From the NCBI RefSeq assembly GCF_964340395.1, contig NC_135569.1, forward strand, positions 3,956,540 to 4,020,539: 64,000 nt of DNA, in the 5' to 3' direction. The position numbers and the translations under genes are program-made. This document shows positions 2,466 through 59,700 of the stretch, piece by piece (within the stretch, counting starts at the first letter, position 1; the number at the start of each line of letters is the position of its first letter). The notes beneath the pieces are model-generated. The model was not told the DNA's origin, did not search any database, and worked only from the letters and a program-made list of their open reading frames with translations. This DNA comes from Glandiceps talaboti. Lineage: Eukaryota; Hemichordata; Enteropneusta; Spengelidae.

Positions 2466-2555
<90 letters not shown>

Positions 2556-9268: not shown

Positions 9269-16308
<7,040 letters not shown>

Positions 16309-21473: not shown

Positions 21474-24400
21474 CTATTTAATGGTTTCCTTAATCCAGGA
21501 GATGAAGTTGCCAACACGAGCATACACGCCGTATGAATCCTCGTCAGCACATTGATCAGGGCGCCCCCACGAGACCGATCCGTACACATAATAACGGAAC
21601 GTTTCTTCATCTTCAAACATCAAAGGTCCACCGCTGTCACCATGACAAGCGTCCCTTCCACCTGAAACAAAATTTAAAATCATGTAATTGTAGATGAAGT
21701 AAAAACCGTGTCATGACGACTATACAGAACCCAAAGTTCATGAAAATGCCTTTATTTCCTTTAAGGTATCTGGTTCCATCTATGTCTCCTTTAATACTTG
21801 CGTCCTAAACACTGAATTTACCCCTACCCCACCCCACCCAATCCCTACCGGTACCATGCACTCATTATATTTCTTAGTGTCAGTCAAATTTTCAAATCAT
21901 AAAATTTCATAAAACATTATATTAACATTACACCTACCACCCTGATATCCAGCACAGACCATGTTATCCGTCACCTCCCACTCTGACCTTCTGTAGACTG
22001 TTTGGCAAATTGAGTGATTCGCCAATGGAACAAAGGTTTCCTGGAGAATATCAGAGCCTCTGACATCCCTGTTGAACGTTGCTCCCCATCCAATGACAGT
22101 AGCCAAGTCGTCTTCAGGTGGAGGTCTTTCAATCTCCCACGTTTCCTCAGAACCATCCTCTTTAATCGTCATCGTAGGAGGTAGGCATACTGGGCGAACA
22201 TAGTCAGTAAAATCAATGGGAGAACTAAGACGAAGGAGTGCCAGGTCGGAATCAAAATTCGATAAATCATAATCGGGATGACGGACTATCTCGGCAACAG
22301 GTCTCTATGATGAGAGGGAAAAGAACAACAAAAATATCGTTATAAACAGTTTAATGTGTGTGGATGGGTGACACATGGGCTTATAATACATTTCGTTATG
22401 TTTCGTTTCATTTCGCTGATTATGTATACCATGACAAATTATCACACATGACAGTATAATAACACTGTACAACATAACATAACATAACATAACATAACAT
22501 AACATAACATAACATAACATAACATAACATAACACAATGTAACTGTACCATTATAACAAAACATAAGACGCACATGACTCACATATACAACACATTCACA
22601 TTCATTCAGTATATGTTACATTTGGTTGTATTTGGGGACTCGAGATATAAACAAGTAAGTTATTGCTTTGTACCTTTTGAACGTGCTGATCTTCCAATGC
22701 TCGTCTATGGACCCCAAGACTGACATTAAAATGTGTCAACGGCAACAACATTCCTCTCAGTCTGGCATCATCTTGCTCTGTTACACAATGTGCAGCAGTG
22801 AGGACCCATTCTTCGTTCAAGAGTGAACCACCACAAATAGCTCTATTTGATAAGATAGTGATTAATGTCACCCATGGCCAGGAACCTTTTACAGCGTTCT
22901 GTCCACCAAGGATACGGAGGCGTGACTTGGGATTCTGTAGGAACGATGTCTCTCCACATACTACAGAAGGAAATTAAAGCATATAATTAGGTGGGTATGT
23001 AAACGACAGGACCCCAGTTTAAAAACAAAAGTCAGAACTCTGATTCTCGAGGAGCCTTCGATGATCACAGGGGAGGGGTTGGGGGGTTAAGGGAGGGGTC
23101 ATAATTTACTTGGACACATTGTGCTATCTAACGTTGCATTATTTTTTTATTTTAGCCTCCTATCGATGTCACTTGTTCCAAATACCATTACTGTAATATC
23201 CCACTGCTGCCACCATTGTGCTATAATATGAGAACAAATCAGTCAAATCACTGCTGACCACCATGCAGGGAATCAAATGTGAATTGTGATGTGACAAGAG
23301 GTGTGGGTGTCATATGGATGAATAGGCACCAATGTGGTAAGTTATTGGGGTGTGATGTGGTGGAGTGGGTGTCATATGGATGAACGGGCACCAATGTGGT
23401 AAGTTATTGGGGTATGATGTGGTGGAGTGGGTGTCATATGGATGAACGGGCACCAATGTGGTAAGTTATTGGGGTGTGATGTGGTGGAGTGGGTGCCATA
23501 TGGATGAACAGGCACCAATGTGGTAAGTTATTGGGGGTGATGTGGTGGAGTGGGTGTCATATGGATGAATAGGCACCAATGTGGTAAGTTATTGGGGTGT
23601 GATGTGGTGGAGTGGGTGCCATATGGATAAACGGGCAACAATGTGGTAAGTTATTGGGGTGTGATGTGGTGGAGTGGAGATGTTGACCTAGGTCCAGACA
23701 ATGTCGGTAGTACACCCATTTTACGTTCTGGCCTTCAGCTCTGCCAATTCTGAGGCGCTAGGCTAGGCCATGTCATCGGAACCACATGTGCACAATTATT
23801 TTTCCCCACCTAATTAGTATACACATTGATGATAAACAAAGTGTATAGGAACAATGATCAAATGGAAGGTACTAGTCACTTTACATCTGGTAAATTTACT
23901 TATTTGGAACTGTGTATCCTGGTTTTATCCTTCCGTTAACATGGTTAACAAATCAGTAAAATTCCACTGTCATTTGCAGAATATGGTAATCAAGAACTAC
24001 AATGGCTACATTACAGAAAATAGTAGTAGTACTCACTTGGTTTACAGTAGGGAGTCACACCTGACCATAGAGCGTCACTCCCACACTCTCGAAAACTAGA
24101 ACCATCCAGTTCATAAAAGTCATCACATCCATAGACCACAACATTGGTATAAGTGAAATTGTTATCACTATAAGATCTAACATAACCGTTTGTGATGTTG
24201 TCAGGATGACCACAGTTCACAACTAATGATAGAGAGGAAGGGAAGAGGGGGTCAGACACATAGTGTAACACATGGAAATTAAGACTACATATTCGGTCTT
24301 CAAATACCTACTACCTTGGCTGTGAGACTACAGCACTAATTTGGTGATAACTTTTCGTTAAAATATCATTCCCAATATTTTTTGTTATTCTCTTGATTTA

Positions 24401-27400
24401 TCCACTGAACTTCGAATTATTCCGAATTATACCAAATTTTAGAAATGTAAAGAAGGAAATGAATACGCACAACAAATAGTGACAGAGATATTCATGTTCA
24501 TTGTTTGAATAAAATTAAAACTTTCTTTTAAAGGCCAGGTCGGGTAAGGATTGAAATATTAATAATAAAAACAAATGTCTGGTAATGTTGTATTAAAGGT
24601 TTGTCCTGAACACGCGAGTGTTGATAATCTTATGTAATTCAACATAGGATTGCCTTGTCGTATTGTGTTGTATTGTGCTGTGTTGTGCTGTGCTGTGTTG
24701 TGTTGTGTTGTGTTGTGCTGTGTTGTGTTGTGTTGTGTTGTGTTGTGTTGTGTTGTTGTGTTGTGTTGTGTTGCGCTGTGTTGTGTTGAGTTGTGTTGTG
24801 TTGTGTTGTGTTGTGTTGTGTTGTGCTGTACTGTGCTACATGTGCTGTGTTGTGAAGTGTCTTGCGATTTGTGTTATGTAGTTAATACATTAATTCTCTA
24901 TTAATGACATATGACTTACTTTGACAGTGTGGTTGTACTCCAGTCCATGTGCCATTTTCAGTACACATCCGGGTTTCAGAACCGACCAGATAGTAACCAC
25001 GGTTACATATGAACTGTACATACTCTTTAAAGACAAAATTACTGCCGGACATCTCAGAATGGAGCGGCGCCGTCAACGTTGGACAAGGTTGCGCTGGTAA
25101 ACAGAAAAGATTTGCTGATAAACGCTAAGACGAAAAGCATGAACGCCGTGCACGATAAATTGCTTAATGAAAATTAATGTCCCCAGGACAGTTGCAACTA
25201 GTGGCAGTTTATTAGCACAGTGTTACGCGGCCAACGGTAGTACGGACAAATAAACCAAGAACCTAGCATCTTACCTGTTACACTGTACCTGGCCTTAAAA
25301 CCCCTTAAATCGCCCGAATCATCAGAATGGAATATTATTTTCATCACATGACTGGGAGATGTTATGGTAGCTGGTAAGTTGTCAACGCCATTCTCTCCAC
25401 AAAATGGACCTAGTATCTCATTACCGGACAATATCTGAACATTAAAAAAAAATGAATGAAATATATACACGTGTGGAATGTTATAAAAAATCTATTTTTA
25501 AAGAAATAACAATAATTCAAGAATTTCAATACGACAGGTCATATTCAGAAGTTCGTCTAGACTGTAAGATACGTCGGGTTATTCAGCCCTATCATACTAA
25601 ACTTTGTCAAGAGTCATACAAGCCAGGTTGAAGGCATTCAAAAAAAAATATGGGCCTTATACATGGTCGATCTGTGTCAAGACAACACAACACAATGTCT
25701 ACGTCATGGGATCAGTGGCGCTTAAAACCTTCCAAATTCTCAATATTTTTGCCGATTTTTCATAAATTATGCTTGAGGAGGAATAATTTTACTGTGTATT
25801 TCCAAATATTTCTCTAAACTCAGACTGAAAATACTCGTGACCCAAGAGTTATGTAACAACTCGTATATCGACTCGTAGTGACAAGACCCCTTAGGTCACT
25901 CGCATTTACTTTTGCTGAAGGAACAAACAAATAAAATATGGAAAATTTAATATAATTATCGACTGAACATTATCTAAATAATACCTTCACATAATCATAC
26001 GGACACGGTTCATCGGGATGAATTTCAACATCAAAGTCTTCAAATTCCAAATTGATGACGTAGCCCTTTTCAACATCGATGGTCCAATCACATTCGGAAT
26101 TCTTCGGATACAGCTTCGGATAATCTGGTGTCTGAATAACTCCCGAGATCCCAGTCAACTTGTTGTTAGCACATTCCACTGAAATATGACGGTTTTTAAA
26201 AAAGAAATTAGTTACATATATAGTATATATGTTTATCACATAAGCACGTGCATATCTTCTACTGTGTGACGTCAAACAGGGCAGATCAAAAACGCATATC
26301 ATCCCTGTTCTACCAAACTTTTTTCTCGGTTCGAGTGTTCCTGCTATGCTACGATCACGTTGTCGTAATAATTATGTACTTTCAAACCGTAAATGCACAC
26401 ATTACTTTACATACATCATTGGGTGGCATGAGTCCGATACGCAGAGGTACTTTTATTTTTATTGAACAGATTTTATTCTATCTAAAAATCATGTAGATTA
26501 TCGATAATAATTCGTATGTAGGCTCGCAGCCGGTTTGATTTTCCATCGAGCTCAAAGCTCCGAACGCGAACGTAATCCTGAGCTAATATACACTAGTAAT
26601 TAAAATGTCGGAACAAAAATCGCATTCAGACAAGTTTACTTACGTTTTACAGCTAAATTTGATATAACATGTACATCGCTAGGGTCGCTAGGTCATAACC
26701 AATCATTTTGGTCGAGCAACCACGGCACACGTACAGTGTATACGTACCTGCACGTATGGTTGACCTCGCAACAGGTCACGCGATTACGTAATTTGCATAG
26801 CCATCGGACGCCATTTTTGATACGCGATGAAGAATAAAGTGCGATGAAAAGATGTAGTATTCGTAAAATTCAATTCAATGGAGGAAATATGTGGAAAAAC
26901 TTAATTATGTGATAAATATATAATCCCATGAAATCAATGTTAGTTTTATGTCATACTGTGCCTCGTATGATTCCGCGGACTACAAATTCTCGCCTACCGA
27001 CTCGAATTTGTATTAGTCCGCGGAATCACATATACAATAGAAAGACTGAAATGGCAGCCGAAATATGTCGTCAGATCAAGAAAGGGAAGAACTACGTAAA
27101 TGCATTCATAATAAAATATTTAAATTTGATGGTGTTGTCTGAAACAATTAGTTTTGGCCAATTATCATTACGGTATTTGAGTGTCCTAGATAATGAGAGA
27201 CATTACATGTAATCGATGGCTAGTAACATGTCAAGTATGAGGGCCTGAAAGATCTTTCATTATTGTGTATGATACAGCCGTGTGTTTAACAGCGCCAACA
27301 ACGTCCAATCTTTCAGTCTACATGCACACAGGCACATACAATCGATTCTCTGGGAGTGGTATATTTTATTACACCACAGTTTAACAAAAAAACTAACAGG

Positions 27401-29308
27401 GTCATGTTTTAGAGAAAGGCGATGCTCGTTTGTGGGGGTCACTTTTTTTTGAAAACAGTATCGGGTCACCTTAATAGATTTCTCCCGCCTGTAATTACTG
27501 AAGGCTCCCTTACATAACACGTAATTATAACTTGCCTGTGCATATCTTCTGGTCCGTGTCCAGTATGAATTCTGGTCGACATGAACAGTAAAAGTCACCA
27601 GGGACATTATGACAGAAGTGTTCACATCCACCATTCTCATTGCTACATTCGTCAATATCTGTTAATGACAAGTACAAAACATCAATTTAGTGAAAGGGGA
27701 ACAATATGCGAGGCTGCATGCAATTCATCCATACATTGTATCAAGTGTATATCATGGTATCGAGCGCCCTCTCTATAGCGGAGTTTAAAATTTGGCAGAT
27801 CTGGCTTGATCTACTGCGGTCAGTCTGGAAATTCTCACTAAAGACTTATTTTCGCTGGAAATCAAAAATGTGAAAATAGGTAGTGACTAAAATTCTCCAC
27901 TGTACATATACAATGCAAAATGATTATTAATTCGTAAAATTAGTGCTTAAAAACAAGCCGAAGTCTGTAAAATCGCAAAATGTTCTAGTGTCAAAAGGTC
28001 TAAGTTAGCCTGCTAAACGATAGGATCTATGGCAGGCTAGACACTGGAGCGATGTATTATGGGAAATGAAAATTGATAGGATGTAGCTTTGTGTGAATAT
28101 CATTGTTCCAAGAGATGTAAAACTCCTAAAATTGTTTAACATAATCTTACCTTCTGCGTAGTAATGTGCCTTAAAACCGATGTAATTCTCAGGGTTTGAG
28201 TAGTCTGAACGAAATACCACTCTCATACGGTTGCTAGGAGACCAAACAATAAGGTCTGCAAGTGGTTTTGGTAAGTCTACGTCCTTTCTCCCACAGAGTC
28301 TTGTGATTTCTTCACTATTTGCAGTTACCTAATCAACCAAATTATGCAAAAGTGTTGAAGGATCTCAGTATTTTATAGTACTAGAACTGAACAAAATTTT
28401 TGCTGGTTGCGCAGTAAATGGTCTCAGTGAACTACAGTAATTAAGGTATTGTTGGTCTACGGAGGATGCATGCCCCGACCAAAATTTAGGTTCAACTGGG
28501 GCTGGAGAAATTACCCAACCATGATATAAAACATATGTAATTCGAAATCTCTCTAGCTCTAGGTGATAACAGAATGATTCAAATTAACGTTCACCCTTCA
28601 ATGGTGCATTGTATCACAGTGATTATAGGAAATGTGCCATTATGCTTGCTATAGTTTTAAGTCCAGTCTCCATGTACGGCACGCCCTCAACGGTTGCTAA
28701 ATAATTGCTACAAACGGCGAATGTAGCCAGCGATGGTCATCTGTAACCGTTGAGGTCGTACTATACTAGGATATTAGCGCAAATGTTGTAAATGCATGGT
28801 CAAAACAAATAGTTTAGCGAAAGTAGGCAAGCTGTGATAGCGTCTAATGCCACGCGTATAGATGTATTGCTCAAAATGTAATTAAACATGCTCGTCCACA
28901 TTGAGCAATGAATATAGATGAGATCATACATCAAATTGCTCACATTAATCTCCAATTATGACATAGATGTTATTTATGACTGTGGGGTTAATGGCATGGA
29001 CCTTCTCCGGGTTGAAAATATCAAATTCTGCAATGAACCTTTCCCAACTGACCTGCACTGAATCATATTCGCAGTTTTCTGTCACCTCCAGATCGAATTC
29101 GGAGAAATAGAGACCAATGCGATATCCAGATGGTACTTCAATATTCCAGACCTTTTCCTGGTTGTCATCATATCCTTGGGGGTAATTGGGTGATTCAAAA
29201 TATCCACCAAGACCTGACAAAGTGACGTCAGCGTTAACTGTACACGTCACACACAGGAAATGCATTAGTACGCAGAGAGCTGGAATGGTGCCCTGCAGTT
29301 TGTTGAAC
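21474..29308 (-). CDS. MASP: MASP-like complement serine protease (gene 2)
   Basis: Ten exons in phase: 29053-29308 (end of signal peptide, CUB1), 28151-28328 (CUB1), 27536-27658 (EGF, DIDECSNENGGC), 25985-26178 and 25275-25434 (CUB2), 24920-25093 (CCP1), 24037-24222 (CCP2), 22674-22960, 21938-22304 and 21474-21661 (trypsin domain). From the in-frame ATG at 29265 this gives 689 residues, the usual MASP size. The residues before CUB1 (LQGTIPALCVLMHFLCVTCT) look like a signal peptide that begins upstream of that ATG, so a short first exon joining at about 29308 is likely and was not found. Activation site RLRILGG; triad TAAHC, DSDLALL, GDSGGP; Asp six before the serine. The serine codon is AGC and the histidine-loop cysteines are present. 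The EGF exon ends at a GC donor. The EGF module is the calcium-binding type expected to pair with CUB1 in dimer formation. The gene lies tail to tail with gene 1. Confidence 0.93.
22467..22534. repeat. (AACAT)n microsatellite
   Basis: About 13 units of AACAT lie in the intron that splits the protease domain of gene 2. Confidence 0.95.
23299..23676. repeat. 62-bp minisatellite, six copies
   Basis: The unit contains GGTAAGTTATTGGGG and GTCATATGGATGAA and repeats every 62 bases. It lies in the intron between the CCP2 exon and the protease domain of gene 2. Copies differ by a few substitutions. Each unit carries a GGTAAGT motif on the plus strand, opposite to the gene. Confidence 0.93.
24655..24840. 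repeat. (TGTTG)n microsatellite
   Basis: Five-base units of TGTTG with TGCTG variants lie between the two CCP exons of gene 2. The CCVVLCC frames on the plus strand are an effect of the repeat. Confidence 0.95.
25795..25925. repeat. dispersed repeat, family E
   Basis: It carries GAAAATACTCGTGACCCAAG and an inverted partner, CCCCTTAGGTCACTCGCATT. Relatives lie at 40725-40860, 43915-44165 and 54240-54385, where CTGAATGA or TGAAAATA flank the same TGACCTAAGGG core. It is a short inverted-repeat, non-coding family. Confidence 0.6.
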
Positions 29309-30604
29309 CTGTTCGGAAATAATGTATGTTGAGGGGAGACACACCATACGTTCTTCCACCTCCCCTTTCTAGCTACATAATCATGCAGAACTCAGTTGGA
29401 TCAATTATCGATTCTAACTCTTCTTACTAAATTTGCCAAAATTGAGGAGGGGATCTGGCATCATTGCAATTGCTGAACTTCATTTTCGCACTTCTAACCA
29501 AATTTAGACAGTTCTGGGTTTGATGTGTTCACTACGTTTTTAAATAGCATCGATTGTAGTGATGTAACCGCTACAATTTTCATCATGGTGACGTCATATT
29601 AACGTGTTGACGTCACACTTGTGAACCACAGACAAGTAAGACTTACTTGTCTGTGTGTGCACGTACGTTGGAGGGGGGGGGGGGGCTTTTGGCCTAAACG
29701 AACAAAGTTCATTTTATTGAGCTTGTGTGACATTGTGCGATAGTCCCTTAGTAGAAGACATTATTGGTTATTTCTATCGTGACCTTTGAACTTTTGATAT
29801 GAAACAGTATACCACATTGATACTTCCCTTTCACTAGCATGACATTTTACGAGTACTTCACAACAGGGGACAACATTTCCGAGAATTGTTTTTCTTTGCC
29901 TCTGTAGATTATCTGGCTATACTAACAAGTTCCATAATAATCTATATGTGAAAATAATTGTTTTTATTATGTATATGTCGACACCCACAATATAATTTGT
30001 ATGTAGATATATACGGACCCAGATCTGGACTGTAGCCCCTGAGGGGGCCCAAATCTGGACTGTAGCCCCTGAGGGGGAACGCCACTGTGGGAAGGGGGGG
30101 GGGCATTTTTGTTAACTTTGAGTTCTGATAATCGTTTAATAATTCTACGTCGCTTACACGCGATTAGGGAGAAACTCCGTGGTTGTTTCATTTGAAAGTA
30201 ACATTACGAGTTGTTCGCCGAAAATATGTATGTTAAGCTATGGTTGAATTTCGAAATTCCGGTTCCAACTAAGATGTATTGCGTGAGACGACTGTCACTT
30301 ATATTGTTAACGTTAGGCTTGTTAGTTGAACTCAGACCACTAAAATCTTTTTAGTGGTCTGAGATTTGAAATAACATTTTCATTGTGAAATGATGGAAAG
30401 ACAAGTTAAACTCTTTAATTATGAGTGATTTTTTTAGAACAAAGACACCATGCCATTACAAGGATTTTAATGATGAAGATAGGGTACGGTCAGGTGACAA
30501 CCACTCCCCTGATCATGAATACGGAGTGCAAACCCCCTGTGCGAATACATGGCGAGATGTACGATGCGTCTTAAGCTTGGAACAGACAATTATAATGTCA
30601 ACAG

Positions 30605-32525: not shown

Positions 32526-37709
<5,184 letters not shown>

Positions 37710-38209
37710 CGTATAGCAAAGTGAATGAGTTGAACACGTTCGTACACTTCACGGGTTTCGGGTTTAAACGTCTGCGTGGCACATGAGTCAGCAACTATGA
37801 ATGTTTGAGGATGAACGTCCTACAAGTACATATTACGTCATTGCAGTTTATCCGTTAAAAAGTCAACATGATTGCAGACATTGATTAGATATATTAAACA
37901 CGATACACAAGTCTTCCACCCATACAGTCACTTGTGAACTAATATTCCATTCCAGGATGGTGAAATTCTAGTCTAGGATGATCATAATACAAAATAATAA
38001 CGTTACGATATTCAAAAAATGCCGTTACTGGTGACTATTTCCGATAATCTTTACTGCACAACATTCCCTAGAAAACATGATATTATACAAAAATACAGAA
38101 ATAAATATAATCTCATATGGGGTTATACTTCCATGGATATAATATATATTCACTAAAAATTCGGGGAAAAAAATATTTTTATTTGTCCATACTTGTGGTT
38201 ATTTCGGAA

Positions 38210-41256: not shown

Positions 41257-44200
41257 TTAAACTGTTGTGCCATTACCTGCTTTGGCTTTTTTCAAAGCTG
41301 TAGCAAGATGTGGAGACAGTTTTTTAAGCACCTCAATAAATTTATTGAAGGCAAACGGACCTTTAGTCATTAGTACTGTAACAAGCTTTCTTCTTTGCTC
41401 ATACGAATCCAGTGTTGTGTTTGTTATTGCTGCATTGTCTTCTTCATCAAAAATCTGTATAAGACACAAAACAAAACATTAGTTTTAGGTAAATCAACCC
41501 CATGACAAGTCAATTTTAATGATTAATACCGAAATCAACAAATATAACACAAAAACATAACATAATCATGACCATCCTTGAATAGAATATTAGCCCACAA
41601 GTGACTTTGTGCATTACATGCTTGAAAAAGTTACACAAAAAGTTTGAGAATGAAATAAAAGTTACATCATTATTCTTTACTTACATCATGCATAGCGTCA
41701 AGCACTTTGTCCACAGGAAGATCTTTAACCAAATCAGGCATAAAACTTCCGAGGATATTACGATCTTTTTCTGTCATACCTACAGCACCAGGTTCATCTG
41801 AAAATATCAATTCAAAACTAAACCTGTCATTTTATGGTCGACATTTTCTTTCATTAAAGTGGCCATATGGATGAGGATTGGGTATTTATTTTGGATTTTT
41901 AATTTATAAAACAATTTTATCACGGCTTCCTACTTGAAAAATCAACATGAAACAACAGATGCCAAGTCTTTGTTTGTAACTCAATATAATGGCAAAAGAC
42001 TGATAAGTGTGTAAAATGTTTGTTATTGTACGTACGATAAACAAAAAAAATTGCATTTGAATCTTGCACTTTCGATTGGCCAATCAGGATGAGCATTATG
42101 TTGGCAGCTGCACACACTGGAGATATTGAAGCGTGCTGATTGGTTGTGAAAACCTTACAATATTGTCGACATTCAATTGGATTGTCTATTACACAGGTTC
42201 AGATGTGGGAAGGCGGCGATCACTCGGAACAAAACAAACGACACAAGCGATGGAAATAGAGGTAAATAAAGCAATTAGCCGCTTTCACCACATCAGATTT
42301 TAATCAGATTGGCTCTATGTTAACTTCTAGACAATTTGGATCAAAAATAAATAATAATGCACCTGGTAAATTTATTATCATATCTTCTTCAACACCACTA
42401 GAATCAGACAATCTGCTTAATGATTGTGTACTGGTTTGTCTTGTGTTGGTTCCTGTACATGTACCAGTTCCCTCATCTACGTCTTCATTACCTTTAGGTA
42501 ACATTGAGAGATGAACTTCATCAATCACTATGACATTATCATCTGCAGGTTCACCACCTTCTACTCTGTCACCTTCCCTTTCCGCATCTAAATATTTTGA
42601 AATAAGACAAATCACCATCAATTGTATTTATATCTTGTCATTGACACAATCTTACAAAAAAAGACCAAGAAAGGTTTTAGTATATCAAATGATTCCTAAG
42701 TGCTTATTACCTGTAGATAAAGTCATGAATGTTTAGTGTTATTTTGTTATCTCTGTAACTATTATTACTGTAGTTTATATATTTACTACTTTGTTTTAGC
42801 ACCAAATACTTATTGCCGAAAATCCAATGAAGAAACGTAGTTTTCTTAACGGATGCAATAAAGATTCTATTCTATTCTATTCTATTCTATTCTATTATAT
42901 TATATTATATTCTATGCTATTCTATTCTAATAAATATGCATAACTGCCAAGTCCCATAATGCAACAGTCAGTGTGAAAACAACAGAGGTGAAAAAGAGTT
43001 TCAATTTAGTGTTTCTTGGCAATCACATGAAATTTATGTGATGTAAAATCAGGAAACAACTCTCCAGAACCCAAATTTTTGAATATCATTTTCTGTAGTG
43101 GTATTCCCCTTTACATGCCCACTTCAGCATATCAAATTGTATGCTCTTTCACACTTCTCACTAACTTCATTAAATTGCTTTTTTTCACATTTAGGGTACT
43201 TCAACTGAGCAGAGATGTATAATGAGAGATGAAGCAGAGTCTCCGAGAACAAGACAGGGAAGGTGGCTTCTCATCAGTATCTCATTCTAATAATGACAAA
43301 TGTGATAAGCAACAATACTTTGATTTTTGAATTATTTTTAAGTGAAGACTTTATTACGGACTCAATTCTCTATCATTAATTTGTTAACTTCGACAAATTA
43401 AAACAAAATGGAAATATAACACAGGTAATAAACAGAAGAACATAAACAATGCAGAATTACATAAACATACCTTTATACTTTCTGTGACAGGGGCACCACT
43501 TCTTACGATAGCACACAATTGCTAATATAACAAAGAAAAGGCACAAAACAAGGACTCCACCTGATAAACCAACGATCCATGCTGTTGAAAGCTGTGAAGA
43601 GTATGATTCTCCTGTTGGCACATTAGAAGTACTGGTTGTAAGCTGAGAACCAGTAGTTGTTGGCATTGAGGTTACTGTGGTTGGAATGGCATTTGTTGTT
43701 GTATCTGAAATCAATAAAAGTTAATCTTTTACTCACTAACTCATAAAGTTATCCACTTCATGGCACTAAACATTAAAATGAAGTCTCTATCCAAGTAAAA
43801 AAAAAAGTATGATTACTCGCATTTTTAGCTCCAGACTCGGGGAGCTATATTTACAATGGGCTCTACCCGTCTGTACATTTGTATGTAACTACATTATTTC
43901 TCTGACATGCAATATCCAATTCAATTCAAAAAGACTCATGAAATTAGGTATTTGTCCTTACTTGTCTTCCACTCATTGTAACAAGGCCCCTTATGTCACT
44001 CATCATTTTTCTCTTTTGAGCAAAGACAAATATGTAATTAGATAGTATTCCCCTACATCTTCATCATTCATTCAAGGAAAATATAAGTCACCTAAGGGGC
44101 TTGTCTCATGACACAATAGCGACAAAACCCTTAGGTTGCCAGTATTTTCCAGCTGAATGAGGACAAATATTGGAATAACATAATTATACCAGTACCAGTA

Positions 44201-45814
44201 ATATCACAGAAAAATTGGGAAACTGAGTGAAAATATTGAATGCTTTCACTCATATTTCAAAAAACAGTAGAACCAGTGACGCATGTATGCAATGTCGGAC
44301 ACGTGACATAGACATGTGTTGTAGTGAAGTAGAATGACCAGGATATAAATTCAATATTTTTTGCTTAACTTAGTTCGTGCATGGTATAATATCAAAGACT
44401 ACTCACCTGTTGTGAACGATTTCATACAATGTTCCCCTGACGGACTATACTGATAACCACTATCACACTGGCAGACATTATTTGCAGTCCCATCTTTGGG
44501 TGCCTCAACTTCTATATGTTCATTCCGTCTACTACAGGAGTTAATTTGTGAACAAAAGTGTGCCCCAGTCCATTCTGAGGAATAGTAACCTTGTGGGCAA
44601 GGTCTGCATTCTGTGGAGTCAGGCCGGGAATCATTGCAGTGACGAGAGACCTTGTAGCCTTATGAGAGAAGAAAATAGAAATACATGTTTATAAATCTAA
44701 AACTACTACACATTTTTTTCAATAAGAGAGAGAATAGATACATTCAGCTAAATGTGTAGAACCAAGGTACAACTTAGGAGAAAACCTAGCAAAGTTATGT
44801 CCATGACATTCTATCATGTTGGTAAGGAACTCTTTGTCTTTTAAAATGACTGGGGTGTACCCCACATAAAAAAAACCATAACACCACAGGGGTGAACAAA
44901 TCCACTGGTTCTGGGTCCAGGACTAGTGATTTTTTTGGGTGGACCACACAAATTTTACCTTGTCTGGTCCGTCGGACCAGTACCTTACTGTTAATAACTA
45001 TGTTAAAAAGTTGTCTGAATGTACAGATTCAGACGAATCAGAGGTAAGATTTAATGTTTCACATTTTTTAGCGGGACCTTGGACCACTAATTCTTTCAGC
45101 AGGACCACAGGATTTTTTAAGGCACTGGTCCGGGGGCCACCAGTTCACAAAATGATTTGTTCATCCCTGCACCAAAGTAAAGCATTTTGTGTGTGTACCA
45201 CAATCATTTATAGCATCCATATCAAGTGTAAAAGTATACTGTTTCATTTGCTAATTGACTACATCATATTACAAAGGCCACATGCTAGGCTTTTGAAACA
45301 GTATACTTTTACACTTGATATGAATGCTATAAATGAGTGTAGCACCAGTGTGCCCTCTAAGCCAATTTGATGCATCACTGATGCACACAATTTCTAGTGA
45401 CGCACCAACATTTGGTGTTCCCCTATCTCTTACTATGTGGTGACTCACAAGGGTATTTGCATAAGTGCTTGAAGAGTTCTCTGTGCAAGTGCAGCAGAAG
45501 ACACTCCAAATATGAGTGCAAACTGCCACTTATGCATTATGGGGTCCAGTTTATAATAAACAGCAAAAGCCTTTAAAAATTACGCCGTGTGATCATGCGA
45601 TTACACAATTCTGTATACAAGAAGTTCTCTGCATATAGATATACAATGTTTTCAATGCTGCACTGCAGTGCAAAATACCAAATAGTATGTCCACACATCA
45701 TTGTGCAAGTAATCACTTGTACCGTTACTTACCAGGTCTGCACATATTGCAACAGTGGCCATCAATGGAGTATTGACGACTCTCTAAACTACAGGTTTCT
45801 AGATCTGACGATCC
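41257..45814 (-). CDS. TNF-receptor-like membrane protein with a CARD domain
   Basis: Six exons in phase: 45733-45814 and 44407-44658 (cysteine-rich repeats), 43471-43704 (stalk and membrane span), 42363-42587 (linker), 41685-41797 and 41257-41454 (CARD, stop 41257-41259). The ectodomain reads CSLESRQYSIDGHCCNMCRPG, then ECRPCPQGYYSSEW, CSQINSC and CQCDSGYQY. This is the cysteine spacing of CD40-type TNFR repeats. A Thr/Ser stalk and one span (WIVGLSGGVLVLCLFFVILA) precede a basic stop-transfer, CYRKKWCPCHRKYK. The linker of about 75 residues is acidic, then Ser/Thr-rich (RQTSTQSLSRLSDSSG). The last 90 residues match CARD: DRNILGSFMPDLVKDL, YEQRRKLVTVLMTKGPFAF, then PHLATAL. No death domain and no clear TRAF-binding motif were seen. 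The signal-peptide exon is missing from the model. Inferred role: a ligand-triggered receptor that recruits CARD adaptors or caspases directly. Confidence 0.87.
42866..42930. repeat. (TTCTA)n microsatellite
   Basis: About 12 five-base units lie in the intron between the membrane-span and linker exons of the TNFR-CARD gene. Confidence 0.95.
45194..45345. mobile_element. foldback element, family F, copy 1
   Basis: Left arm ATTTATAGCATCCATATCAA...AAAAGTATACTGTTTC; the right arm is its inverse. A second copy at 58251-58408 has the same arms and a different loop. No ORF. Confidence 0.8.
45350..45450. repeat. dispersed repeat, family G
   Basis: A segment starting GTGCCCTCTAAGCCAATTTGA and ending near CTTACTATGTGGTGACTCA. 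It recurs as a tandem pair at 46582-46785. Minus-strand open frames (SHHIVRDGGTPNFG) come from the repeat. Confidence 0.7.
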
Positions 45815-47216: not shown

Positions 47217-47647
47217 CAGAAAAAGTTACACCCAAATATGTATAAACTTAGCTTGTGCCCCTTTAAAGTACCTGCACTAATACAACATAAATATTTATGT
47301 TAAGAGTGTGACAATTATTAATTCTAAAATTTATATGTATCACTTTTTACCTGCTATAATTTCCTTTACTGCACTACAAAAGTGAGTTTGAAAATGAAAT
47401 GTAGGGAAAAGAAAAACATTTAAATTTTGTAAGATATTAGTTTTATATTCTGTGCATACTAAGTTCTAGCCACAACTGGAACATTTTTCAATCATAGTGG
47501 TATGACAGATTATGAAAGCTACAATTTTTACCATGGTTTACATCATATATAATGTAAACAATGTTCCACATGTAAACGTTCAGGGGAGGGGTTTTCCCCC
47601 CTAAATGTACAAATGAAGTTAATTTATATAATATATATACAAAAATG

Positions 47648-47812
<165 letters not shown>

Positions 47813-47884
47813 AGCATATACAATGTGTCTATACTGGAGCAAACAGTGCTCAATAAATATACATGTAGAGCGGTATAACTACTA

Positions 47885-48067
47885 ATAATAGTACAGTATC
47901 AAGTAAGATACACATGAGCCGTTACACAGTGTTTCATGCGTTCGCAATCATCGGACGAGATCCGAGAACATAACTGACTGTACCGTTAGTCGTCCGATGA
48001 TTGCGAAAGCATGAAACACTGTGTAACAGCTCCAGTGTATCTTACTTGATACTGTACTATTATTAGT
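47885..48067. mobile_element. foldback MITE, family H
   Basis: The left arm runs CTAATAATAGTACAGTATCA to GCAATCATCGGACGA. The right arm is its inverse with few mismatches over about 75 bases. Both ends are flanked by TA, which fits a TA target-site duplication. The short loop carries no ORF. The arms are better preserved than in the other families, so it is likely young. Confidence 0.85.
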
Positions 48068-49529
48068 ACTCAATTGTCAAAAGTCCATTAGGAATAGATT
48101 AATTATCAGTGATTAATCCAATTAAAGACAATATACCCATTACTCGATTGCCATGGAAACGTATATACACAAACATTACCTACCATATTTTAAAGCTTTT
48201 ACACACCGGAAACTCGTGACACCAACACACAGTACTGTCGTCCTCAATGTAGGCTGGCTTTACACGCTGTTCATACAGTTCAACTTTTCCTCGGATTCCA
48301 CTAAGTACAACCAAATCAAATTATTCTTCAAGTGAAAGCAAATCGCCCCAATTTATCACTTTGTAGCTCGACCAAGTTTTGGTTATACACGATGGTTGCC
48401 CTACCAGATTTCACAGACACTTCGTACAGTCGCTGTGAATGCGCTAATGTGATTATGAATCATCTCAATATGGAGGACATGTCGTCTGAAATAGCCCAAG
48501 TCACGGAGTTTTTTTTTCTGTAACCAGTTTTCTACCAAAGAATCGTCGTAGTATAATATCAAAAGTCCATCGTCTTTGTCTGTCGCGTTATATAACGGAC
48601 ATGTCAAATTGAAAGTCGATTTTGAGAAGTGTGTGTCCTCAGTTCGTATACGACGAATACACAAAGTTAAAGTCAGCGACTCCTTTTAAGGACGTTGGGC
48701 GGAAATAACGTCACAGAGTAGGCCACTAGCCGCTAGGGTATTTAGAACGAAAAAGCACATTGAGTTATATTGTGTATTATATTTATCGCTGATCAGTCTT
48801 TGATATGGTGCAAAGTTAAAGGTTTAGAATGGAAGGACATATTCGTATAAAAATTCTGATAACTTTGAAATATTTTAATATCATGGTACAGCCCAGATGG
48901 GTACAGTAGCATTTCTATATCATAATGGATAGACCAGCAAGCTGCGATTGACGTCGCATCGACCGGCGACATGACCCGCAATGACCTTCGGGCAACGACA
49001 CCGACATCACGCAGCAGTTTACTGATACGTGAGTCACATGAGTCAGGACATATCACAGTAGATCTGTACTCACAAGAAATAGTGCTACGTTACTCGGACT
49101 AAATACTCATTACTCCCATTGATTCTGTCGATAATGTGATGTGACTAATGGGCGATGGTGTGTCCCGTCTTTTCTTATGTTCACTCACGATGCTGATTTT
49201 CTGTCTCTTGGTGTGGGTGATGCCAATCGATTTTGCATGTTCATCCACACTGTTCTTATGGGGTCAGGGGGTTTATTTTATTATTATTATTATTATTTTT
49301 TTTTTTTTTTTTTTTTTTTTGGGGGGGGGGAGTCATTTTGAAAAACATCACTTGAAGTAGGGGGGGGGGTCACTTTGGAAAACAAGAGTATTTGCCATCT
49401 TTAGCACGTCTGTCTGTCTGCTTGTCTGTCGGTCTGTGTGCCCCAAACCAAATGACTGATTGCCTTGGTATTTGGTGGGGATATTACATTTGGTGTATAT
49501 TTGGGAAATGGACACGAAAACCACACAGC

Positions 49530-51085: not shown

Positions 51086-52017
51086 TAAATGCAAAATTCA
51101 AGTATTTAGTGCAGATTTGTTCTTTATTCAATCTTTCTGTAACAAGTTTTCTTACGATTACAACAAATTACTGTCTTTACTGTAGCCTGTACTTGAGAAC
51201 AAACTTGAGAAAAAAGCACCCATATAAAAAAGAAACTCTTAATTCATTGGAATGCCGATATGAGTTTTTCTTTTACTGTTCATTTGGCAAGATGTATAAT
51301 TCAAAAAGTTAACACACACACAAACAAATGTCTATTTCAGTAATGGGTGAGTCTTGACGATGTGTCTTGGTAACCATTGTCTCGTTGGGGTACTGTATGC
51401 CATATTCTGGTTATCAAAGTTTAGACCACTTCACATTTAAGGATTGCAAGAGGGTGTTCCAGGTTGGGAGAGTGAAGGCCAAAACGTGGTAGTGGCCACT
51501 GGTGGTAATGTGAGAAGCCATGAACAAACTGTGTGTATAAGAACTCTGCTCCAGGTTGGGAAAGTGAAGGCCAAAACTTTGTAGTGGCCACTTGTGGTTA
51601 TGTGAGAAGCCATGAACAAACTGTGTGTAAAAGAACTCTGTTCTTAAGAGATCATTACAATAGTGGTTAGGCATGTTGTAATTATTGGTAGTCACTAATA
51701 AAACAGTAGCAAGTGACTACTATCTGCTGTCCTTACACTACAGCCTACAATACTCAACTATTCTGACCCTCACTTCTGGCCCAAAAATGGCTTCCAAACA
51801 CTGAATTTGAGTGGCTGAACCATCAAATCTTTTTTACCTTTCTGATAACCAGAATACAACGTATCATACACCCTGACAATGTTTCTTCTTGGTAACAACT
51901 ACACACCATGACTGTGCCTCTTCAGTTGACACATTGCACACCATAATGGTGTCACAGTGTCTTAATGGTAACAACTACACACCATGATGGCATGTCTTCC
52001 TGGTAACCATTTCACAC

Positions 52018-52023
52018 TTTATT
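52018..52023 (-). promoter_or_regulatory. AATAAA overlapping the UBE4B stop codon
   Basis: On the minus strand the last codons read CAT AAA TAA AG, so AATAAA spans the stop codon. If it is used, the 3' untranslated region would be very short. It may equally be chance. Confidence 0.25.
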
Positions 52024-52199
52024 TATGTTCCTGGCTTCTTTTTACCATTGATTTCTCTTTCATCCACTGTTGAATCTTAGTTTTCAGTTCAGGTACTGTA
52101 AAATAACAATTTAATAACAACAAAACATTAACTATGATGAACCTAATAGATTCTTGAAGTTCAGGGGTGCTTTACATTGACGAGTAAAGTAACGATAAT

Positions 52200-52238
<39 letters not shown>

Positions 52239-55200
52239 TACCATTTCCAAAAATGAATTGAAGTTCAGGGGTAGTTTACATTTACAAAATGAACGCTGTA
52301 GAGAAAATAAATTCATTTTGGGAAATGATATTTGACTGACTGATTGATTGATTGATTATTGTCATTACTTTAGTCGTCATAAAAAACATGAAATTTCCTT
52401 AGTATTGACAGAAATATACTGAAACACAGAGATTTCACTGACACATATAAATAATTGCTCTATTCATTTCTGTCTCAATGTCAATAGCTTGGACTCAATG
52501 CTCGCCTGCCCTCGTCCATCAGGTAGTTAATATGATGAAAACACCTGCTACACTTCAATCTAGAACAATTGATCAATCACAAATGACTTAGCCTAGCTGT
52601 TAGACTGTCTGGCTTACTTTTGACATTAGGTGACTGAAGGTTACATTGCACCAAGGTGGACATCAAGGGCATTTATCCTTGGCTTTTGTTTGGCAACCTT
52701 CCGAGATCCAAGACAAATGACTCACCTGGAACCAATTCTTCAGATGTTAGTGGCTGTCTGTTAAATGGGTCTGTAGATGAGTTTAATAAATGCCTCTCTA
52801 TGATTGGTCTATCCATTACTGTATCAGATGTTGGTAACAGGACTGGATCTGTCATCATTGTGTCCATTAAGGGGTCTATCAAACATGGAACAAAGATGAA
52901 ACATGATAATCTGATTTATCAAACATGTAACAAAGATAAAACATATTCTGAGCTATCAAACATGTAACAAAGAGGAAACATAATCTGAGCTATCAAGCAT
53001 GGAACAAAGATAAAACATGATCATCTGATCTCCCAAACATGTAACAAAGATGAAATATTATAATGAGGCCTATCGAGTATATCTTTTATTTATATTCAAG
53101 TTGAGATTTGACACATTGAAATTGACCTTTGAACTCATCAGGTGCATCTTCAAAGTCGATATCTTTCTTCATATTACTAATGACAATCTCATCTACTAAA
53201 GTTGCCAAGTCACGGAATTTCCTGATGTCAGATTCTGTCTTGATTACAGTTCTAGTCATGACACCTATGGCATCTTCAAAGACTTCCTTTCGATAAGAAC
53301 GCTGTAATTAGAAATAGTCGGGGTTAGTGCTCAACCAAAGGGGTATACATTGGGTGTTTGAGTCTGATTTGGATAGGTTTTCTGTATTTACGGTGTCCTG
53401 GGAAAGGGGTTCATACCAAGGATTCATAATGTTTTCATGCATGGAATCATAACTGTTACATTAGCTTAAATTCTGTCTGAAAAGGGGGCATGTAATTTGC
53501 TATTCTTCATGTCTAAATAACAGATTTTTTCGTGCTAGCCACACACACCCACCATTTTCCTAGGTAAGTACCCACTATCCCCATTCCCAGCTATACCCAC
53601 CATCTCCAACCTGGGCACACCCACCATCCCCATCCCCAGACATACCAACCATCTCTAACCCCAAGCAAGCATACCCACCATCCTCACCCCAGACATACCC
53701 ATCATCCCCAGGTATACCCACCATCCCAGACACACACCCACCATCTCCACCCCCAGGTATACCCATAATCTCCACCTCATCTGCCACCACTGGCACACCC
53801 ACCTCCAGACATATCCACAAACCCCGTCCTTGGGCTCACCCACCACCCTCAGGCACTCACCTCATCTGCTGCAACAGCTTCAGCAAACTTTTGACAATTG
53901 AGATGTAAATAAATATCAGTAAGTTGATCCAGTAACTTCTTAGGTTCAAAACCATACTTTTCTTTGTTTTCAACTTTTAAATCATTGCACTTAGGACCAC
54001 ATAACTGTTGTAAGTTGAAATTCAACATGGCAGCTAAACGTGATGACAGTTCCTATAAAAAAGGAGAATAAAAACAAAACTTGTATTTATCTGAGTGATA
54101 ACATCTGAACATTAGCTTGGTAAAAACTCCTGCTAAAGGAATTAATACTGTTTTGATAAACTTGTAATTTTTTTGTGTGTACAAGCATACTTGTAATTAC
54201 CCCTGGTAGAAAGCGGATGAAGCTAATCACGATCTCAAATATTTCTTCAGCCAAGTAAAGTATGATTTTTTTTGAGTGACCTAAAGGGCCTTGTTCCCAC
54301 AAGTTGCAGACGAGAAATGCCAAAACCATATGATGTCAAGATCATATTTCAGCTGAATGAGGAGAAATATTGGGGGTAATATAATTATACCTGAGCAAAT
54401 GCAACTTTTGAAAAAATATAGAAAACTTACTTATTTTAAACTTGTAATTTTAGCATTGCAGAATTGATGATGTAGATACACAAAATTATCAAATCAATTA
54501 ACCAGGGTATAAATGCCATATTTTCTGTTTGAATGTGTACTATTTGGCTTGTTGATGGTATGAAGTTCTCTACCAATATGTAAATCTTATACTTACTGGT
54601 CGTAGAAATGGTTCTGGAATACTTCTTGTTAGATAGTGAAACATATCCAACGTTTCACCTGCCAGTGTCAGATAAGATCTGACTTGTCTTTCATCAGTTG
54701 ATAACTGACGTCTTTTTTCTTCCTGTGCATCCTGAAAATGAATCACATCAGTTTTATGGTCTATAATGCGAACTTGGTATACACTAGGGAGTCTGACCTC
54801 ATCCCTCTAACTTTCTGGAAACGAATCACATCAGTTTTATGGTCTATGATGCAAACTGGGTCTACACCAGGGAGTCTGACCTCAACCCTCTAACTTTGTG
54901 GAAACCAATCACATTACTCACTTCAAGATGAGTAAATTGTACACTGGGGGTTCTAACCTAAAGTCTCTAACGTTATGAAAACAATCATTTGGACATTTGT
55001 AAACCACTTCCAGTCGATGATTCAAATTAAGCTACACTAGGGAGCCTCAACCCTCTAAGTTTATGAAAATGCATGAAAACTACCTTTATCATTGACATCC
55101 AGGAATCTTGTTTCCTAGTTCTTGTACCTAGTGAACCACTTGTGATCTATGATTCAAATTGAGTCTGCACTGTACTAGGGAGCCTCAACCCTCTAAGTTT

Positions 55201-55827
55201 ATGAAAATGCATGAAAACTACCTGTGTCGTTGAAGTCCAGGAATCTTGTTTCATTAGTTCTTGTACTTCGTGAACCACTTGTGATCTATGATTCAAATTG
55301 AGTCTATACTGTACTAGAGAGCCTCAACCCTCTAAGTTTATGAAAATGCATGAAAACTACCTGTGTCATTGAAGTCCAGGAATCTTGTTTCATTAGTTCT
55401 TGCACTTCATGAACCACTTGTGATCTATGATTCAAATTAAGTCTACACTACTAGGGAGCCTCAACCCTCTAAGTTTATGAAAATGCATGAAAACTACCTG
55501 TGTCGTTGAAGTCCAGGAATCTTGTTTCATTAGTTCTTGTACTTCATGAATTCTCTTCAGACAATCCAGACTTTCATCGAGTAGAAAGGTTGTATCATTC
55601 ATTAACATATTGACAAACCTTACAAAGTCTTTGCCAGAACTGAGAAGGATATCAAAGTATACAGAATTAATACATGGATATGCAATTAAACTCTAGTATT
55701 GGTAGTCCGACTGACGAATATTTGGATATCATTATGAGAAATGAAACTCTGAATGATTATTTGTCTATGTTAGTAATAGATGTGTCTGTGTGCATCTGTG
55801 CATCTGTGTGTGTGTGTGTGTGTGTGT

Positions 55828-55893
<66 letters not shown>

Positions 55894-56641
55894 GTGTCTG
55901 CATGTGTGTCTGTGTGTTTTTGTGTGTGCACATGTGGTCATGAATGTGTATGATGGGGAGGGGTTGTCTTAGATGTCTTTGTATGGGAAGGTCAAGTATG
56001 TGTGTGGGTTTGAATGATTTGTGTGTACATGGGAGGGGTAGTCAGGGCTGTGTGTGAATGAGTTTTGATATAGTTTCAACACACATCAATTGGTTTGATA
56101 TAATTTGCACATACTCACTTGCTTTCCAGTACAATGGCTTGTCTGTGTAGTGGAACGTTCCACAGTGACTTCAATATAATACTGATGTGATAGCGAATAC
56201 TAAATTTATCATAGAATTCATTGCTACTACCAGTTGTTTCCACATCTAAACACAGAAAGATACAAGAATGGTAAATAAGTTACTAAATAATCATTTATAA
56301 AATAGTCACCAGAACATTTGCTTATTGTTCGGTTATGAATAGTAGCTACAAGTAATTGTGAGCTAACTAGCACTCATAGGCAATTTCATTAACTATGGTA
56401 TTCATTAAATAGTTGATGTTGTTTGATTATGAATAGTTGCTAATGGTTGGTAGGCTCACACTAACCTGTATAAAACCTCATCAATGCCGGCGCTAAATGA
56501 ATTGTTGCTAACGGTTGGTTAACTAACATGTCATGGATGTGTCTTGTTCTGTCTTGGATGGCTGGATTGACTACAAAGAGTAACTGTAAGACAAAATACA
56601 AAAAGAGAATATGATTGACTAACAATCAGATGTACACAGAT

Positions 56642-56716
<75 letters not shown>

Positions 56717-59700
56717 TACATACATACATACATACATACATACATACATACATACATACATACATACATACATACATACATACATACATACATACATACA
56801 TACATACATACATACATACATACATACATACATACATACATACATACACACATACACATACATATATACATATACCTGGTACAAACAAACACATACACAC
56901 ACAGTCATTTACATACAGACATACACCCATACATAGACACAGGCAGGCAGGCAAACATGCAGGTGGGCCAGCTGGCCGACCAACTGAACAAGACAGACAA
57001 ACAGACACATATACATATATCAATACCCATACACAGCGCAAATTACACATATACTGCCGACAGTGCTCTGGTTCACACACTGTCATACTTACCTCTACAA
57101 ACTTTGCCACAAGGTATGGATTACTCAAGTAGTGTGGTGAACAGACAATCAGTACAATAAATAAAACAATATCTGGTAGGAAGGTGTCTTCTAGAACATG
57201 GGGGAAGTGCCTACAATGAAACACAGTCAACATGATTGATGGCAAATCTTGATATAAAAAGATAAAATTGAAGATTTCGGTGTTTCGGTTACCATTGACT
57301 CTATTTAACATAATTAAACAAACATCCTAAATCACAACAAAAAAAATACAGGGTTGAAAATGCAACAAACTTTTGAAGTGAAACATTAGGAATGGTAAAT
57401 TTTTCAAGGGAGGCTGAAGTATTCAACTACAGTGAAAATCATGAGATATGAAACAAAACCTCGTTCATCTGCTTGACAAAAATCTTACTAGCGCTGCTAC
57501 ATTTTATCATCTGCTTTAAAAAAAATCTTCCCAACAGAGATATTTGTTAAGCGAGACAGTAAAATGTAGCAATGTTAGTAAGAGTTTTGCTGAGCCAGAC
57601 GATAAAATGTAGCAGCGTTAGTACAATTTTTGTCACGTCAGATGCCATATTGTTTCAGGTCTATTGATTTTCATTGTATCATGGCTCTCACTTCTGGTCT
57701 AAAAGATGTTTTTGAAAGGCATTCGTAGTGACCAAAGTTTACAATCTTTTGTTTTTCTGAAAAAATGGAATATGACATATAGCCAGGACAACATTTTTTT
57801 TGTATTCGTATAACAATTGAATACAATGAGTCAAAAACTATTTTTAATTTTTTTTCCTTGCACATGTAAAACATTTTACAGCAAGTTAGGAAAATAATGA
57901 TAAATGAAAATATAAATGTGAATCAAATGTGACTTACTGAAGAATAAACAGCAAAAATTCTGCTATATCTTCTGCATAATAATCAGGCAATGAGGAAAAC
58001 TCCATAGGGACTTCTTGTGGAAGTGGTAATGTACTGTAAACAAGTATAAATTGATGTTACAGACCCTTTCTGGATTGGGATCAAAATTTAGGAACGAAAA
58101 ACTGACAGAGCTATAGAAAGAGGTGGTCAAGAACTAAAGGAATGATTATATGTATAGCGGTGGCACACTAAACGTGGCCTTTGCTTTGTAGATGTAGGCA
58201 ACTTGTATGTCATTATAAACAAAGTAACAAGTAACACTGACTTTCTCTATGTGCTACACTCATTTATAGCATTCATATCAAATGTAAAAGTATACTGTTT
58301 CAATTGGTTTATTTACAAGCCTAGCATGTGGCCTTTCTCATGTGGTCAATTAGTAAATAAACAGTATATTTTTACATTTGATATGGATGCTATAAATGAC
58401 TGTGGTACAAACAGAAAACAGAAAACGCTTCACTTTGGTGTTATGGATTGTATTAAAACACAGTTGCACACAGTAGTACCCAATTGAATTTATTATGTTT
58501 TTGTTGTTAACCCCATCAGACAGTATCTTTCATCCGTTAGATAATTACTGGGAAATTACAAACTTGGCAGTGAGTTGTAAGTATCACACAGTCAGCTTGG
58601 CAACTTTGTCATCTAAGATTTAGTAGGTTCAACAACATCCACTAGAAAGGTAAAAGCTGTTGATGCAGTAAGGTCGTATCTGCTATGCAATTGTATTGGC
58701 AGATATGACCTTACTGCACTGACGTGACGATATCACCTCTATCTAACCTTGCAAATAATGTTTATTTTACTAAATAGAACAATGTTCATTGACACATAAC
58801 CAAGTTACTTTTTTAATTCTACATTTTGGCAATGTGAAAGACGGGAGTTGTGGCCCAGTCACTTATGGGACAGTTTGCTCACCACACTGCCCTCTAGTGG
58901 TGAACAGTAATCACTGCCCGTTTGCACTGAGGAAGGCAACAGTAGCATTGGCAAAACGAAGACACGAAAAAAAATAACTTGGTTGTGTATCAACGAAAAA
59001 TATTCTAATTATTTGAAGTTGCAACTTTCTGAACCTGTTTACTGAGAATGTTTATTTAGTGTACGGATCTAAACTTACATTTCAGGGCCTTTCTTTGGTG
59101 TCATCAAGTTTGTTAGGAATTTGACCACACTTCCATAAAATGACAAACATCTCCTGAGAAGAGACTCATCTAAAACACCAGCATCTGCACAGGCTTTAGC
59201 ACGTACCAGTTTCTATGGTAATTTGAAGTAAAATACAGACATTTCTATCAGTTTCTATGGTAACATAATGAAAATACATGTACATATATTTCTATCAGTT
59301 TCTATGGTAATGTAACGAAAATACATGTACATAAATTTCTATCAGTTTCTATGTAACATGATGAATAAACAGACTTTTCCATCAGTTTCTATGGTTACGT
59401 GATGAAAATAAAAACCTTTCTATCAGTTTCTATGGTAATGTGAGGAAACTTGTGACAAGTTCTGCTTGTCAATGTTTGGTTGTCAACAATTGTACATATA
59501 AACCAACCTTATGCTGGGTCCTCCATTTCTCTAATAATTGTCTGTTTCGCTTCGCAAGAGGCGTGTTTTTCCAGACGTTTTCTTGCGACTGAATCTCATC
59601 AATCATACGTGTCAATTCACGGAGAGCTCGTAACCTCCGAGTGTAGTGTCTAGTACAGGGTAGAAGTGCCAAGTGATGGCAGTGAAGGGTAAGGAAGTAA

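Follow-up and report, generated by a model that had tools for sequence, protein, structure and literature searches.

TNF receptors (TNFRs) are clustered by trimeric ligands, and those of vertebrates are commonly divided into a death-domain type and a TRAF type, CD40 and RANK signaling via TRAF-binding motifs. CARDs, the docking domains of cell-death and inflammation adaptors, signal through nucleated helical assembly. TNFR fusions of other kinds are in print: in the accessible part of one report, the amphioxus protein Brafl1_82667 is described as a TNFR-caspase hybrid (PMC2575513), and in the accessible part of another, TNFR_c6 repeats of cyclostomes are paired with PRY/SPRY (PMC11788884). Here, we analyzed a 64,000-nucleotide stretch (the window; G000:C23:3956540-4020539) of the 590-Mb, 47-contig genome of Glandiceps talaboti. 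The annotation of the encoded protein identifies the source as an enteropneust hemichordate, and the hint of a lancelet source in a preliminary description of this DNA did not stand. On the minus strand, which the preliminary description did not specify, the window contains a gene for a predicted TNFR that ends in a CARD.

The gene runs from 45814 to 41257 in six exons separated by five GT-AG introns of phases 1, 1, 1, 1, and 0. Reading from exon A, the open frame comprises 367 residues up to the stop codon, with no frameshift or internal stop; in its product, a CD40-type ectodomain is followed by a single membrane span, then by an acidic linker, and finally by a CARD at the C-terminus. The exons are as follows:

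Exon A, 45733..45814, minus strand: first half of cysteine-rich repeat 1, with a Met where NCBI isoform X2 starts; acceptor ACAG, donor GTAAGT, phase 1 out.
Exon B, 44407..44658, minus strand: completes repeat 1 and encodes repeat 2 of the ectodomain, identified by the CD40 match made together with exon A and by an exon search of the same genome.
Exon C, 43471..43704, minus strand: Thr/Ser-rich stalk, single membrane span (by eye), and basic stretch CYRKKWCPCHRKYK, identified by frame and junctions.
Exon D, 42363..42587, minus strand: acidic Ser/Thr cytoplasmic linker without a TRAF motif.
Exon E, 41685..41797, minus strand: first part of the CARD, phase 0 out.
Exon F, 41257..41454, minus strand: second part of the CARD and the stop codon.

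The NCBI model examined, LOC144451492 isoform X2 (P0001, 344 amino acids), has the same junctions from the exon A Met onward, and transcript support for the window gene is no better than that model. The preliminary description had joined six in-phase exons into CD40-type repeats, one span, a Ser/Thr linker, and a CARD, and this was borne out; the annotated protein continues through the CARD exons rather than ending before them. The exon borders likewise confirmed phase 1 for all ectodomain introns and for the intron ahead of the CARD exons, to which we add a further phase-0 intron inside the CARD. These phases are compatible with the exon shuffling proposed earlier, and repeat 1 of CD40 presumably contains a phase-1 intron in the corresponding position. 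P0001 belongs to a cluster of two sequences, and its precomputed Pfam list holds CARD only.

When compared to PDB sequences, the window ectodomain matched CD40 best (E = 2.3e-11), followed by OPG, HVEM, and RANK at about 1e-7. A second annotated Glandiceps protein, P0002, named 'TNFRSF1B-like' by NCBI (427 amino acids, with a CARD), matched DcR3 (2.1e-16), RANK, OPG, and CD40 over its ectodomain, with E values from 2e-16 to 2e-12. All 12 ectodomain cysteines of the window protein are common to the four family members we aligned. The Pfam TNFR_c6 model gave no match at E<=1 in the window gene, and therefore a Pfam-only annotation would miss it as a TNFR; P0002 reached 16.1 bits against the curated cut-off of 29.4, which is a threshold of the model and not a biological feature. 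With their homologous cysteine-rich repeats, both proteins can be assigned to the TNFR superfamily on sequence.

The whole window frame scored 30.7 bits against Pfam CARD (cut-off 23.9, E = 3.2e-7) and its C-terminal part alone 34.4 bits, while P0002 scored 48.6 bits; all four aligned members matched the model, the best at 7.4e-13. Neither Death, DED, nor Pyrin matched the window gene at E<=1. The Death family was likewise absent at that level from P0002, indicating that these are not death-domain receptors, and Peptidase_C14 gave no match at E<=1 in either, so that no caspase domain is fused. The C-terminal domain would thus be placed in the CARD family, above the cut-off and ahead of Death, DED, and PYD, and the possibility raised earlier that profile scores might favor a death domain over a CARD did not materialize.

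When the whole genome was searched with exon F, nine matches reached E<=1, and six had E values under 1e-6. At four of these six loci (the window, C6:1.33M, C6:8.37M, and C4:4.23M), the corresponding TNFR exon lies upstream in the same orientation, with membrane-span exons between the TNFR and CARD exons; the four lie on three contigs of one assembly. The exon A-B phase-1 junction fits in all three paralogues, the C4 exon A having been picked by eye with two possible donors. Within the CARD, the phase-0 intron falls at the same codon in all five other family CARD loci. In an alignment of hand-built models, the three paralogues were 35-40% identical to the window protein. The C6:1.33M model, which shares the DEGTGT stretch of window exon D, has an unsure junction between exon B and the membrane exon, and the C4 model is without exon D. 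P0002 is the C6:8.37M copy, and it showed that our hand-built model of that copy had missed one exon and misplaced the linker ends; identity to the window protein was 30% for P0002 by BLASTP and 35% for the hand-built model by MAFFT. Nearly all of P0002 (426/427 residues) maps to nine exons, the first of which is signal-like, has 17 codons, and precedes the second by 3.4 kb. Its order is a signal-like N-terminus (by eye), cysteine-rich repeats, a membrane span, and a CARD. Because the architecture recurs at three additional loci, on two contigs other than that of the window, the window gene is, as judged from these sequences, a member of a paralogous family of at least four and not a mis-join. 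The TNFR-CARD architecture set out in the preliminary description is strengthened by these paralogues and by the full-length NCBI model.

Three other places were considered as members and rejected. C18:14.23M and C11:11.05M have the same split CARD, and no TNFR exon was found in the roughly 20 kb preceding each. C23:4.40M has an ectodomain and a membrane-span-like exon, and no profile CARD was found in the 10.5 kb read, which extends about 3 kb past that exon. A split CARD of the same subtype (L009, C11:11043782-11046185) lies 5.6 kb upstream of a Death-exon cluster at C11:11051600-11103609.

A family profile was built from six split CARDs, those at C18:14.23M and C11:11.05M included. Its best matches were caspase-9 (1.4e-7), Apaf-1 (5e-6), ICEBERG (5.6e-6), RAIDD (1.5e-5), and CED-3 (6.9e-5), with weaker matches to BIRC2/cIAP1 (8.8e-4), NOD1 (0.0013), and CARD11 (0.014); such profile similarity names no partner. 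In a tree, the six split CARDs grouped together (86/98) apart from 8 single-exon CARDs drawn from the 26 CARD matches in the genome, with no branch reaching the strong mark. TRAF patterns were scanned in the window gene, P0002, and the C6:1.33M model. Five patterns were absent from the 192-residue tail of the window gene, and the four patterns applied to the C6:1.33M model were absent there.

We scanned the whole genome for the domains concerned. TNFR_c6 gave 54 matches at E<=1, 35 of them above the cut-off; CARD gave 26 at E<=0.001, the window's own split CARD not included; and Peptidase_C14 gave 57. Death gave at least 148 matches at E<=0.001, a lower bound as 150 of 199 candidates were scored. 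Among 14 control genomes, one had a TNFR_c6 match at E<=1, below the cut-off, and none matched CARD, Death, or Peptidase_C14. Death exons follow TNFR_c6 exons on the same strand, 3-9 kb downstream, at C22:12.88M and at three places in C7:21.30-21.34M; these are neighboring exons rather than gene models. Because of this arrangement, Glandiceps probably has death-domain receptors as well as the CARD receptors. Among the at least 148 Death matches listed, none is near the four CARD members, the nearest on a shared contig being about 160 kb away (by eye). At C8:13.346M, C1:16.578M, and C14:1.719M, CARD and Death exons adjoin in the same orientation, and these pairs could possibly encode RAIDD-type adaptors.

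From these findings, we consider it reasonably likely that the gene encodes a type-I membrane TNFR in which a CARD replaces the death domain and that signals through clustering-driven CARD-CARD contacts without FADD or TRADD. The product would presumably be delivered to the cell surface, with the membrane span of exon C and the signal-like exon of P0002 both recognized by eye. A trimeric TNF-family ligand would cluster the CD40/RANK-like ectodomains, and the clustered CARDs would nucleate CARD-CARD assembly with cytosolic CARD proteins. Candidate partners are an initiator caspase, an Apaf-1/NLR-like protein, or a RAIDD-like adaptor combining a CARD and a death domain (CARD-DD); the outcome would be caspase activation or inflammatory signaling with FADD/TRADD bypassed. 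The direct link to CARD adaptors or caspases envisaged in the preliminary description would be of this kind. Because the family CARD profile resembles the apoptosome group, an initiator caspase or a CARD-DD adaptor would be favored as the partner, such likeness being no binding test. More tentatively, hemichordates may have evolved, next to the death-domain and TRAF-binding classes, a third class of TNFR in which CARDs brought together by ligand would seed an assembly akin to the apoptosome or inflammasome at the plasma membrane; if true, signals from outside the cell could directly switch on CARD pathways that elsewhere operate in the cytosol.

Several observations weigh against a signaling receptor of this type. 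Minus-strand scans upstream as far as position 52 kb of the window revealed no convincing signal-peptide exon for the window gene, and isoform X2 begins at a Met within cysteine-rich repeat 1, so that the first Cys of the repeat is not in it. Taken alone, the window CARD matched PDB entries weakly (caspase-9 0.045, an unrelated reductase 0.053, RAIDD 0.3). The P0002 tail contains three short TRAF-like strings (TSEE, SEEE, and PTQHS; four patterns), and TRAF signaling is therefore possible in that paralogue. No CARD-prodomain caspase was identified, the 26 CARD and 57 caspase matches lying at least 490 kb apart, a comparison of match distances from which split exons may hide such an enzyme. Protein searches needing shared exact 5-residue words found no CARD-bearing relative outside Glandiceps, a result that may stem from rarity as well as from the low sensitivity of such searches and does not imply absence from Saccoglossus, Ptychodera, lancelets, or echinoderms; they returned two Glandiceps proteins and two fish TNFRs whose Pfam lists are without CARD.

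The lack of a convincing signal exon and the start of X2 would both suit a degenerate window copy that is no longer a receptor, with P0002 and the others as the working ones. We regard this as improbable, since the six exons retain their GT-AG borders without frameshift or stop, the 12 ectodomain cysteines are conserved as described, NCBI annotates the gene as protein-coding, and a signal exon as short and as distant as that of P0002 is easily missed. The same X2 start, together with the profile match to ICEBERG, would fit a CARD tail acting as a brake, in which the receptor or the signal-less isoform sequesters CARD proteins in an ICEBERG-like manner and inhibits death or inflammation. However, caspase-9 scores above ICEBERG and Apaf-1 about equal to it, the first Cys of repeat 1 is invariant in all four aligned paralogues, and the N-terminus of P0002 is signal-like; we give a brake little credence.

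The tail might instead serve inflammatory CARD signaling of the NF-kB type, in the style of CARD9/11-BCL10, NOD-RIPK2, cIAP, or MAVS, rather than initiator caspases. Two of the proteins with the closest ectodomains, CD40 and RANK, are established NF-kB receptors, and the weaker profile matches to BIRC2/cIAP1, NOD1, and CARD11 point the same way, but caspase-9 scores about four orders better than BIRC2 or NOD1 and five better than CARD11, and this alternative appears unlikely. That two adjacent genes were fused by both the first reading and the NCBI pipeline is very improbable: NCBI models were available for two of the four loci and the joins are known here from DNA and NCBI models alone, yet the four loci, spread over three contigs, all show the same exon order and have the CARD intron in common.

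Upstream of exon A, two short frames were rejected as signal exons, MILMFSLK (46113-46091) and MIRCILVIRK (51867-51838), both being weak and unlike a real signal peptide. A further feature of this region is:

CpG-rich stretch, 48000..48999, no strand assigned: candidate promoter or 5' exon region of the receptor gene.

In 500-base bins, the CpG observed/expected ratio was 0.85 at 48000 and 1.43 at 48500, and the AT-rich bin at 47500 also gave 1.5. An inverted repeat (by eye) next to a long TA array occurs at 47880-48060, in the interval separating the receptor exons from the CpG-rich stretch. Exons like those of a UBE4B-type U-box ubiquitin ligase (by eye) lie immediately upstream of the receptor gene, at about 52000-57200 on the minus strand. 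Elsewhere in the window, Pfam revealed complement-protease (MASP/C1r)-like CUB, Sushi, and trypsin exons in groups at 1471-4357 (plus strand) and 21897-29391 (minus strand), the latter CUB/trypsin group having no Sushi match in the part scanned. A 334-amino acid open frame at 9269-10273 (minus strand) would encode a Syndecan-like membrane protein, its Pfam Syndecan score falling just under the cut-off. A sulfotransferase exon (Pfam Sulfotransfer_1) occupies 34746-35123 on the minus strand, and the neighboring frame at 37404-37748 had no Pfam match.

The genome scans also revealed TNFR_c6 exon clusters at C9:13.14-13.24M and C9:25.15-25.20M, a large receptor expansion. Five dispersed TNFR_c6 places of equal score, each with a 188-amino acid open frame (L025-L029; C10:13586376, C10:3260743, C23:13431410, C31:112119, and C39:8804), might represent a TNFR-like fragment that a mobile element carries. 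A weak caspase-like frame (C6:1344993-1345730, minus strand, E = 7.3e-6) occurs beyond the end of the C6:1.33M TNFR-CARD gene, at a distance of 5.4 kb and in the opposite orientation.

No description of a TNFR-CARD receptor was found in our searches of open-licence literature, in agreement with the earlier statement that no example was known, two TNFR fusions in print being, in the accessible text of the two reports, of other kinds (PMC2575513, PMC11788884). At four loci, then, known domains occur in an apparently undescribed combination. The presence in one genome of this family and of neighboring TNFR and Death exons suggests that cytoplasmic modules are exchangeable by phase-1 exon shuffling. 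A TNFR-CARD protein could plug into cell-death and inflammation adaptors without the usual death-domain adaptors, and would be a natural receptor for asking whether membrane clustering alone starts CARD assemblies. In ectodomain cysteine pattern and sequence, the family resembles CD40, RANK, OPG, DcR3, and HVEM; unlike CD40 and RANK with their TRAF-binding motifs, the window gene has a CARD and no TRAF motif. Fas, TNFR1, and p75NTR likewise combine a TNFR ectodomain and a membrane span with a death-fold domain at the C-terminus, but theirs is a death domain where the Glandiceps family has a CARD. The sequences closest to that CARD, in caspase-9, Apaf-1, and RAIDD, belong to cytosolic proteins, whereas the family CARD is attached to a receptor. 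As far as the accessible text goes, the cyclostome proteins similarly place TNFR-type repeats in a lineage-specific domain pairing, but no death-fold domain is named there, in contrast to the CARD here (PMC11788884). The amphioxus hybrid, in the part of its report available, likewise fuses a TNFR ectodomain directly to a death-pathway module as an adaptor shortcut; there the caspase domain itself is fused, whereas the Glandiceps family has the recruiting CARD, and a hemichordate case would thereby be added to the amphioxus shortcut (PMC2575513).

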